A DNA stretch of 64,000 nucleotides from Cytophagales bacterium (GTDB lineage: Bacteria > Bacteroidota > Bacteroidia > Cytophagales > Spirosomataceae), in assembly GCA_013298125.1 (NCBI GenBank), contig JAAFJP010000012.1, positions 62,001 through 126,000 on the forward strand, given 5' to 3'. Each line of letters starts with the position of its first letter. Position 1 is the stretch's first letter. The notes beneath the pieces were generated by a model that worked only from the letters and a program-made list of their open reading frames with translations, was not told the origin of the DNA and did not search any database. Shown piece after piece: positions 46,293 through 49,626 of the stretch. The position numbers and the translations under genes are program-made.

Positions 46293-47591
<1,299 letters not shown>

Positions 47592-47596
47592 AATGT

Positions 47597-47643
47597 AAAA
47601 CCTTTACAAATTTGCAATTGGATTGCAGATTTGTAAAGGTTTT
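47597..47643 (+). terminator. Possible terminator hairpin after metY
   Basis: AAAACCTTTACAAAT (47597-47611) pairs with ATTTGTAAAGGTTTT (47629-47643); an inner TTGCAA/TTGCAG region fills the loop. A short T-run ends the stem. It begins 6 bases after the metY stop, so it may separate metY from the transposase unit and metX. Confidence 0.6.
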
Positions 47644-47683
47644 AGAAAGGAAATATAAATCAAAAACCTTTTATTTTGAGATT

Positions 47684-47743
47684 TTCGGGTTCTCTATTCC
47701 TAACGAGGGGTTTAAACCCCTCGTTAGGAATAGAGAACCCGAA
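47684..47743. repeat. Perfect 60-bp palindrome 1 (centre GGGTTTAAACCC)
   Basis: Arms 47684-47713 and 47714-47743 are exact complements with no loop. The core ACGAGGGGTTT and its complement are shared with palindromes 2 and 3; the outer arms (TTCGGGTTCTCTATTCCTA) are unrelated to theirs but perfectly paired. It lies 35 bases upstream of the transposase start. Confidence 0.95.
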
Positions 47744-47778
47744 GTAAACAGTATTTCAATATTAACCACATACTTAAA

Positions 47779-48219
47779 ATGGCTCAATCACGTAGTTTTA
47801 TAAATATTTGGATTCATTTCGTCTGGGCAGTAAAAAAGAGAGAACCATTATTATCTAAATCATTTCGAACTAATTTATGCAAACATATCCTTGAAAATGG
47901 ACGTAGTAAAAATATTTATGTGGATATGATTAATGGAGTAGAAGACCATTTGCATTGTTTGGTAAGCTTAAAATCTATTCAGAATGTTTCTGATATTGCC
48001 CAAAAACTAAAAGGAGAATCCTCCAAATGGATTAATGATAATGGATTAGTGAATGGAATTTTTGAATGGCAAGAAGGTTATGGAGCTTTTTCGGTAAGTC
48101 CAGACCCTAAGCATTTAAAAAGAGTTAGAAATTATATTAAAAATCAAGAGAAACACCATGAGCGGAAATCATTTGATGAGGAAATGGAGGAGTTTGAGCG
48201 AATGATTGGAGCTGAATGA
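47779..48219 (+). CDS. Y1 (HUH) transposase, IS200/REP-associated type
   Basis: A 146-residue single-domain HUH enzyme. The HUH motif is H57-L58-H59 in GVEDHLHCLVSL; W97 onward reads WQEGYGAFSVSPD, typical of REP-associated Y1 transposases; the catalytic Tyr is Y119 in RVRNYIKNQEKHH with Q123. All key residues are present. Such enzymes cut and join single-stranded DNA at hairpins. It is bracketed by three perfect palindromes and interrupts the metY-metX interval, with no second (TnpB-like) gene. Confidence 0.92.
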   Translation: MAQSRSFINIWIHFVWAVKKREPLLSKSFRTNLCKHILENGRSKNIYVDMINGVEDHLHCLVSLKSIQNVSDIAQKLKGESSKWINDNGLVNGIFEWQEGYGAFSVSPDPKHLKRVRNYIKNQEKHHERKSFDEEMEEFERMIGAE

Positions 48220-48287
48220 TTTTATATTATAAATAGAGAATACAAATTTATTATCACAATTCATTTTGGTCTATATATAAAAGAAGA

Positions 48288-48347
48288 GTTTTGTTCAATA
48301 TCCATAACGAGGGGTTTAAACCCCTCGTTATGGATATTGAACAAAAC
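48288..48347. repeat. Perfect 60-bp palindrome 2 (centre GGGTTTAAACCC)
   Basis: Arms 48288-48317 and 48318-48347 are exact complements. The core ATAACGAGGGGTTT differs from palindrome 3 (ATAGCGAGGGGTTT) by one base that is compensated in the other arm. The outer arm GTTTTGTTCAATATCC differs from palindrome 1. Confidence 0.95.
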
Positions 48348-48410
48348 AGGTTGAAAAATACTATTGAATACTTTATTACTTCAATTTACATTTGCCTTGA
48401 ATACGAAGAA

Positions 48411-48468
48411 TTTTGTCGACTATCCATAGCGAGGGGTTTAAACCCCTCGCTATGGATAGTCGACAAAA
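48411..48468. repeat. Perfect 58-bp palindrome 3 (centre GGGTTTAAACCC)
   Basis: Arms 48411-48439 and 48440-48468 are exact complements, TTTTGTCGACTATCCATAGC plus the shared GAGGGGTTT core. It is followed at 48474-48484 by GAAATACTGTT, the reverse complement of AACAGTATTTC that follows palindrome 1 at 47747-47757. It lies 45 bases before the metX start. Confidence 0.95.
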
Positions 48469-48513
48469 CCGCAGAAATACTGTTGAGTAACTAAACTGAG
48501 AAGACATGAAATA

Positions 48514-49626
48514 TTGAATCAGTTAGAATCTAAGAAAACATTGAACAACATAAACACATACAAACACAATAACCCCTTCCCATTAGAAGCAGGAGGCATT
48601 TTACCCGAACTTGAACTCAGTTATCAGGCTTTGGGAGAACTCAATCAAGAGCGTTCAAATGTCGTGTGGGTATGCCATGCCTTCACGGGGTCGCAGGATG
48701 CGGAGGACTGGTGGCAAGGGCTGATTGGTCGTGGAAAATTATTTGACCCAGATAAACATTTTATCATTTGCGTAAACGTTTTGGGTTCGCATTATGGTAG
48801 TACGGGACCACTTTCGATTAATTCCGAAACTGGAAAACCGTACTACCATGATTTCCCTTTAATCACGATTCGAGACATTGTTAATTCCTTTGACATTCTC
48901 CGTGAACACCTCGGAATCCATCAGATTTATACCTGCATCGGTGGTTCTTTGGGTGGGCAACAGTGCGTTGAGTGGGCGATTTCTCAACCAGAACTCATTG
49001 AAAATCTGATACTTATCGCTACCAATGCACAACATTCTCCTTGGGGGATTGCCTTTAATGAATCCCAAAGAATGTCCATCGAAGTTGATCCAACTTGGAT
49101 TGAAAGTAATGCACAGGCGGGACTCAAAGGTATGATGGCAGCAAGAGCAACGGCATTGATTTCGTATCGTAATTATGAAACCTACGGCGTTACGCAAGCC
49201 CGTCGGGATGAACCTTTGGGCAAATCACATAGGGCGGTAACTTATCAGCGTTATCAGGGTGAAAAATTAGCACAACGATTCAATGCCTTTTCGTATTATG
49301 TACTCTCGCAAGTGATGGATTCGCAGGATGTTGGGCGTGGACGAGGCGGTGCAATCAAGGCATTATCCCAAATAAAATCAAGAACTTTGGTGATGGGCAT
49401 TAAGTCGGATGCTTTGTTTCCGATAAATGAACAGGCATTTTTGGCAAAACACATTCCTGACTCCACTTTCCAATCTTTGGATTCATTGTACGGTCACGAT
49501 GGTTTTTTGATTGAAAGTCAGTTGATAACGAAAGCGATAAAATTATGGCAAAAATTCATTCGATTTGACGTTAATCCGATGTATGAGTTTTTCAAGAAAT
49601 TGGAAATGAAAGAAGAATTGGTATAG
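48514..49626 (+). CDS. metX: Homoserine O-acetyltransferase
   Basis: A 370-residue alpha/beta-hydrolase-fold acyltransferase. It opens with FPLEAGGILPELELSYQALG and has GSHYGSTGPLS near residue 92, the nucleophile elbow GGSLGGQQ near 145, and the His in YGHDGFLIES near 330. It acetylates homoserine to give the metY substrate. The only start I can place is TTG at 48514 (TTG 48541 is an alternative); the nearby ATG at 48506 is out of frame and stops after three codons. Confidence 0.9.
   Translation: MNQLESKKTLNNINTYKHNNPFPLEAGGILPELELSYQALGELNQERSNVVWVCHAFTGSQDAEDWWQGLIGRGKLFDPDKHFIICVNVLGSHYGSTGPLSINSETGKPYYHDFPLITIRDIVNSFDILREHLGIHQIYTCIGGSLGGQQCVEWAISQPELIENLILIATNAQHSPWGIAFNESQRMSIEVDPTWIESNAQAGLKGMMAARATALISYRNYETYGVTQARRDEPLGKSHRAVTYQRYQGEKLAQRFNAFSYYVLSQVMDSQDVGRGRGGAIKALSQIKSRTLVMGIKSDALFPINEQAFLAKHIPDSTFQSLDSLYGHDGFLIESQLITKAIKLWQKFIRFDVNPMYEFFKKLEMKEELV

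Follow-up and report, generated by a model that had tools for sequence, protein, structure and literature searches.

We describe a Y1 transposase-like gene that lies, in a 64,000-nucleotide stretch of Cytophagales DNA (hereafter, the window), between perfect palindromes, and whose protein belongs to a single clade repeatedly found beside long palindromes. The protein retains intact Y1 motifs, the palindrome arms have drifted in mirrored fashion, and dispersed copies of the palindromes occur in MITE-like frames. We consider it slightly better than an even chance (probability about 0.52) that the locus is REPtron-like, with a Y1 protein of TnpAY1 subclass 1.2 accompanied by its own family of spacerless palindromes built on the core TARCGAGGGGTTT and its mirror. 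Y1 proteins are HUH single-strand DNA nucleases related to the transposases of IS200/IS605 elements. The features of the locus are listed in Table 1.

Table 1. Features of the Y1 locus, in positions of the window.
Feature	Position	Strand	Description
Segment with Y1 gene and palindromes	47669..48561	.	No counterpart in genome G043 (BLAST against L155)
Palindrome 1	47684..47743	.	60 bp, perfect, spacerless; 35 bp before the Y1 start codon
Y1 (HUH) transposase-like gene	47779..48219	+	146 aa; Pfam match, invariant residues, structure model; fits TnpAY1 subclass 1.2
Palindrome 2	48288..48347	.	60 bp, perfect, spacerless; 68 bp after the Y1 stop codon
Palindrome 3	48411..48468	.	58 bp, perfect, spacerless; mirrored core change relative to palindrome 2

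As claimed in a preliminary description of this DNA, three spacerless palindromes (60, 60, and 58 bp) surround the gene, and their arms are 100% complementary; by chance, the expected number of 58-bp palindromes in 64 kb is about 2e-13 at equal base frequencies. The mirrored core change said to separate palindromes 2 and 3 was confirmed as an A/G difference (ATAACGAGG vs. ATAGCGAGG). The outer arms had been called unrelated from copy to copy yet perfectly paired; the pairing held, but the arms proved to be partly related, palindromes 3 and 1 sharing 86 and 69% identity, respectively, with palindrome 2 over 65 nt. No GTAG tag was seen by eye at the feet of the three palindromes, an Rfam search of positions 47500-48600 returned no family at the gathering score, and palindrome 2 (48290-48345) had no match among phage and plasmid records. 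Two matches among viral contigs were palindromic over 18 bp only. The sequence AACAGTATTTC lies directly 3′ of palindrome 1 (47744-47765), and its reverse complement, GAAATACTGTT, directly 3′ of palindrome 3 (48469-48485).

The Y1 gene stands between genes that, from their translations, we take to be metY and metX. When positions 46305-49626 were compared by BLAST with locus L155 of G043, homology ended at 47668 and restarted at 48562; the flanks were 87-88% identical, with a different sequence in place of the segment listed in Table 1. Since G043 has the flanks without the segment, the segment is variable between relatives, and no match to the Y1 protein was found in G043. A terminator-like hairpin after metY (47596-47644) has, by eye, one mismatch in the window's own genome (G000) and three in G043, and one of its base changes between the two genomes is mirrored.

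The preliminary reading of an intact HUH/Y1 gene with H57-x-H59 and Y119 was borne out by a Pfam search and an alignment. The 146-aa protein matched PF01797 (Y1_Tnp, E 9.2e-24) and contains the motif D56-H57-L58-H59 together with Y119; H57, H59, Y119, Q123, and H126 were invariant across 21 aligned proteins, the window protein included. An AlphaFold2 model (mean pLDDT 86.8) was closest to the ISDra2 and IS608 transposases (E 1e-9 to 1e-7, TM about 0.64), with the REP transposase 4er8 ranking lower (E 2e-6). By sequence, the protein fits TnpAY1 subclass 1.2: it bears the Y---Q--HH signature as YIKNQEKHH, its 146 aa compare with about 148 aa for the subclass, and its copy number is low. Only two proteins matched it in G000, one being the window protein itself, and the remaining Y1 matches there were distant, none of them a near-identical copy. 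Among the 30 best homologue loci of the family (the window's included), Y---Q--HH was present in 28 and a WQ motif in 27. The window protein has DHLH where the subclass is tabulated as DH[IV]H, a consensus form and not an absolute rule; D-H-[VILF]-H occurred in 13 of the 30 homologues, the others having mostly DHCH or DHAH. At the position of the Y---NP motif of REPtron transposases (TnpAREP), the window protein has Y---Q. Phage records gave one match to the Y1 protein, at 28% identity, and matches were also found on two Cytophagales plasmids; the 1.6-kb stretch around the one from Bernardetia held no palindrome of score ≥8.

A search for the core in this genome and its relatives, proposed in the preliminary description, found copies dispersed through G000 and present in the relatives G041 and G045 and in more distant MAGs. 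G000 contains 21 core palindromes, 17 with GGGGTTTAAACCCC and four with the mirrored core GGGATTTAAATCCC, and 18 of the 21 lie elsewhere than at the Y1 gene. As in a REPtron, then, the hairpins on either side of the gene belong to a family dispersed in the genome. All 17 copies of GGGGTTTAAACCCC sit at the centers of long palindromes, 16 of them perfect over 50-62 bp and the other (L005) with a single unpaired base in an otherwise long stem; the four GGGATTTAAATCCC palindromes span 52-64 bp. Allowing one mismatch with GRGGTTTAAACCYC revealed no copies in G000 beyond the 17. Among 222 genomes of the family, the first core (as an 18-base pattern) occurred in two (17 copies in G000, one in G041) and the second core in three (four in G000, one in G041, five in G045); a further G041 site, at C435, was left out of the counts. 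Across a collection of 84,980 species, the 18-base pattern was found in 30 stretches, 14 of which were perfect palindromes over at least 34 bp: eight in the spirochaete MAG RBG_16_49_21, four in the Bacteroidetes MAG-72, and two in Cytophagales MAGs. The other 16, at 18-32 bp, may be unrelated. When the flanks of 19 G000 loci were compared with seven loci of G041 and G045 to find orthologous palindrome loci, only the Y1 gene matched. The core string was not found in the open-licence literature.

The 21 sites in G000 lie between codirectional genes in 13 cases and between convergent genes in three, and with so few convergent neighbors a role as bidirectional terminators was not favored. Copies in frame exist inside open frames of 383, 403, and 774 codons; the first two belong to the spirochaete MAG (L049 6821 and L055 2416, respectively), where the core is read in frame as SEGFKPL or ARGLNPSL. 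A palindrome of genome G211 (L175) lies in frame within a variable loop of what is presumably an FAD-oxidase gene. At orthologous sites in the same genus, g33 (L175/L188), other species hold different inverted repeats or short linkers, and the empty-site comparison of L175 likewise found different hairpins in different species. Judging from these sequences, the site is apparently a hot spot for hairpin insertion. In G192, another g33 genome, the palindrome portion of the L175 query had many matches, and this genome may hold a large palindrome family.

The association of Y1 gene and palindromes, first noted at a single locus, is found again in G045 and in three genomes of g33. When the 30 best homologue loci were placed in a tree, the window protein fell in a six-member clade (support 100/100), also marked by a GYGA motif, with proteins of G045 (73% identity to the window protein), of G182, G191, and G211 in genus g33, and of G104 in genus g8 (44-45% for the g33 members and G104). 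A palindrome of score ≥15 stood beside the gene in five of the six clade members vs. one of the 24 others (p 2.4e-4, although related rows are not independent). The clade's palindromes span two genera, and their cores are similar but drifting. In G045, GCGAGGGATTT palindromes lie on either side of the Y1 gene, one with a mismatch, and the core change is mirrored. Five palindromes of score ≥9 surround the gene in G182, one lies on each side in G191, and one lies downstream in G211; no long palindrome was found beside the gene of G104. The g33 cores (e.g., AGCGGGCGAATT) resemble the window core AGCGAGGGGTTT without being equal to it, and at up to two mismatches the g33 pattern occurred six, 13, and six times in G182, G191, and G211, respectively, and not at all in controls. 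These sequence data support a cognate, REPtron-like pairing of Y1 protein and palindrome that would operate with no tag, loop, or bulge.

A broader association, with short palindromes beside subclass 1.2 genes, looked overwhelming against arbitrary windows (palindromes on either side of 21 of 30 Y1 genes, strand-corrected, vs. 12 of 536) but proved weak when the comparison windows lay next to other genes of the same loci, both downstream (18/30 vs. 6/20, p 0.048) and upstream (8/30 vs. 0/16, p 0.037). We therefore set it aside and restrict the claim to one clade and its long palindromes. An identical 20-bp palindrome, CCTCCAGATAAATCTGGAGG, follows four related Y1 genes (L072, L075, L077, and L083) at a distance of about 40 bp; it may act as a terminator or correspond, in short form, to the long palindromes.

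The tie to this clade is not exclusive. According to the preliminary description, its reading would fall if the palindromes were equally present in related genomes lacking this Y1 subgroup; this is partly the case, since the spirochaete MAG, MAG-72, and G041 carry them. Neither the spirochaete MAG nor MAG-72 gave a match to the window protein at E 0.001; they encode four and one PF01797 proteins, respectively, with other motifs (e.g., NHFH, YNP), and the only hairpins found near these were short or spaced, with unrelated sequences. In G041, an assembly that is 86% complete, the nearest Y1 protein (53% identity) falls outside the clade and for that reason was dropped as support. Palindromes in such genomes may be the remains of lost partners, or the Y1 protein may not be needed.

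How the palindromes became dispersed was examined in the 24 copies that lie away from Y1 genes according to two exact core searches (18 in G000, two in G041, and four in G045). Sixteen of them are framed by terminal repeats (CGGAAYTAT.. type) and 8-bp target duplications in which at least 7 of the 8 bases agree, all 8 doing so in ten copies; shifts of up to two bases were allowed, and two of the 7/8 cases are A/T runs. The other eight copies have no clear frame. In the 16 framed copies, the terminal repeats are mismatched at 1 to 12 of about 24 positions and the palindromes are perfect over 42-60 bp. At the Y1 locus (C4:109684-110468) no match to the terminal repeats was found at up to three mismatches; thus most of the dispersed copies, but not the palindromes of the Y1 locus, show the terminal inverted repeats and constant-length target duplication that characterize MITEs. 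The g33 and spirochaete copies shared no common frame in the flanks inspected. Terminal inverted repeats with 8-bp target duplications are the mark of a DDE transposase. Since 16 of the 24 copies are framed in this way, such an enzyme is probably behind much of the dispersal, and in the window's genus a putative DDE-type transposase has probably spread many palindromes as cargo. The preliminary picture of a minimal system whose palindromes are moved by the Y1 protein is thus not supported as stated. Frames with terminal repeats of the same type carry quite different inner hairpins at other loci of G000 (L091-L098, L100, L102, L103, L105, and L106), as though several unrelated palindromes had become the cargo of a single MITE family.

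Mirrored drift of the arms was counted at positions 10 to 22 from the center, outside the search pattern. The 28 copies of G000, G041, and G045, three genomes of the window's genus (364 arm pairs), contain 41 mirrored differences from consensus and two unpaired ones; these figures count copies and not events, as changes are shared among related copies. The arms thus vary and the symmetry is preserved, as the preliminary description had proposed, in a way consistent with one arm serving as template for the other. Had the arms evolved by compensation, by way of mismatched intermediates, many one-arm changes would be expected to remain, which arm copying would not leave. Nine spirochaete copies (117 pairs; L056, with its run of N, was left out) have 19 mirrored and nine unpaired differences, all nine in L039. 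In ten hand-picked framed elements (L001, L002, L005, L006, L009, L012, L014, L015, L057, and L127), the terminal repeats are mismatched at 50 of 240 pairs, with 16 mirrored, vs. one unpaired of 220 over the inner 22 positions of the palindromes, with eight mirrored (mismatch contrast, p 2e-14). This choice omits L004 (gapped repeats), L125 (ungapped, 12/24 mismatched), copies with repeats of a second type, and copies whose frame is unclear, and it includes L005, in which the target match is just 6/8. The terminal repeats possibly differed from the start, so the contrast does not purely reflect age. Symmetry is also not kept everywhere, since ten of the 25 g33 sites found at up to two mismatches are asymmetric and 15 symmetric; G191 and G211 hold several asymmetric, apparently decaying sites. 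Overall, the sequences give good evidence for concerted change of the palindrome arms, and the mirrored changes would be best explained by template switching in hairpins, which is a known process (PMC8794818; PMC6649704). Elements with differing terminal repeats around intact central palindromes offer a natural yardstick for such template switching in bacteria.

On the REPtron-like reading, the palindromes would fold into hairpins in single-stranded DNA, for example at the replication fork. The Y1 protein most likely acts on the hairpin, which it would recognize through the core, as suggested by the clade association and the known activity of its family. An arm change would then be copied onto the opposite arm by template switching within the hairpin, and because one-arm changes are so copied, the outer arms could drift freely. 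Most dispersed copies in the window's genus travel in MITE-like frames, many of them probably moved by a DDE transposase. We infer the dispersal route, the binding or cutting by the Y1 protein, and template switching as the copying step. It is conceivable, if improbable, that a HUH nuclease with a strand-symmetric, loop-free palindrome as substrate itself drives the copying between arms. Nicked at its foot, the hairpin would offer a self-primed 3′ end from which a polymerase rewrites one arm; recognition by the protein would keep the core, and the arms might drift or grow. Were this so, what the palindrome renews as a DNA repeat would be its own structure and not its sequence.

Other explanations deserve consideration. 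Unlikely, but the one to be taken most seriously, is that the palindromes are the centers of DDE-type MITEs with no working link to the Y1 protein. The Y1 gene would then have come to lie among three of them by chance or nearby insertion, and their symmetry would reflect template switching as it occurs generally in close inverted repeats. The framed copies, ten of them with full-length target matches, and the palindromes in genomes without a match to the window protein speak for this account; it fits less well with the missing terminal-repeat match at the Y1 locus, with the g33 and spirochaete flanks that share no frame, and with a Y1 link that recurs in G045 and three g33 genomes with different cores. 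We are more doubtful that the palindromes are selected RNA or DNA hairpins (terminators, attenuators, or mRNA ends) whose arms stay paired through ordinary compensatory mutation. Most copies are indeed intergenic, and in G000 codirectional neighbors outnumber convergent ones (13 vs. three of 21), but compensation should leave many intermediates where two unpaired vs. 41 mirrored differences were counted in 364 pairs. Moreover, an ordinary terminator beside the locus has accumulated one and three mismatches in two genomes (by eye), and some copies lie in frame inside the long open frames mentioned above.

Slightly less probable still is the view that symmetry was made once, at birth, when a nicked hairpin primed itself and copied adjacent DNA into a second arm, the palindrome decaying normally afterwards. 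In its favor, the spirochaete and g33 have outer arms that each occur in one copy alone, and G191 and G211 hold the asymmetric sites; against it, copies with badly decayed terminal repeats keep perfect palindromes, and no empty site was found that matched an arm to native flanking sequence. That the palindromes are an assembly artefact is highly improbable, even though several of the genomes are fragmented MAGs: the same core appears with different arms in several assemblies, and L005 retains an uncorrected base. An artefact of one assembly is unlikely because the same kind of palindrome occurs in others.

Among known systems, the protein fits TnpAY1 subclass 1.2, with which it shares Y---Q--HH, a length of about 148 aa, a WQ motif, low copy number, and occurrence in Bacteroidetes; it differs in the long palindromes that bracket the gene and in its HUH motif, DHLH vs. 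the tabulated DH[IV]H (PMC6006769). In the sections of the defining paper on this subclass, no REP is listed for it, typical terminal IS200 structures are generally absent (Quentin et al., 2018; PMC6006769), and a palindrome association is not described; among open-licence papers, this one alone appears to treat the subclass, and nothing on an IS200 element with a palindrome in Spirosoma was found in that literature. The locus would thus give subclass 1.2 Y1 proteins, previously without a described DNA partner, a candidate substrate, a core sequence, and a definite clade. The fold predicted for the protein is nearest to that of IS200/IS605 transposases (IS608, ISDra2), which also have the Y---Q motif, but the genome holds no near-identical copies, the ends here are perfect loop-free palindromes, and unit boundaries were not seen. 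Like bacterial MITEs, 16 of the 24 dispersed copies sit between terminal repeats and 8-bp target duplications, a frame that the Y1-locus palindromes lack. Rickettsia palindromic elements likewise occur in frame within genes, but they are said to lose arm identity over time, whereas the palindromes here keep it (PMC6649704). Perfect, co-changing arms for which template switching has been proposed are known from Nematomorpha mitochondrial palindromes (PMC6649704) and template-switch hairpins (PMC8794818); in contrast to these, the palindromes here make up a bacterial family of dispersed repeats that share a conserved core and are accompanied by an HUH nuclease. REPtrons (TnpAREP/RAYT) offer a close parallel, a Y1 gene flanked by a genome-dispersed hairpin family and probably forming a cognate pair with it, but the locus here has Y---Q rather than Y---NP and no GTAG tag, and its palindromes are strand-symmetric, 42-70 bp long, and without loop or bulge beyond the turn (PMC6006769; PMC8266576). 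Those TnpAREP and IS200/IS605 enzymes that have been characterized act strand-specifically and rely on loops, irregular stems, or a GTAG tag (PMC8266576). A perfect loop-free palindrome gives few such cues, and this raises the sharpest biochemical question of the system, namely how a member of an enzyme family that normally distinguishes strands would do so here. The association of Y1 gene and palindromes is real and orderly, and we regard it as a variation on the REPtron theme, not as a system of a new kind.
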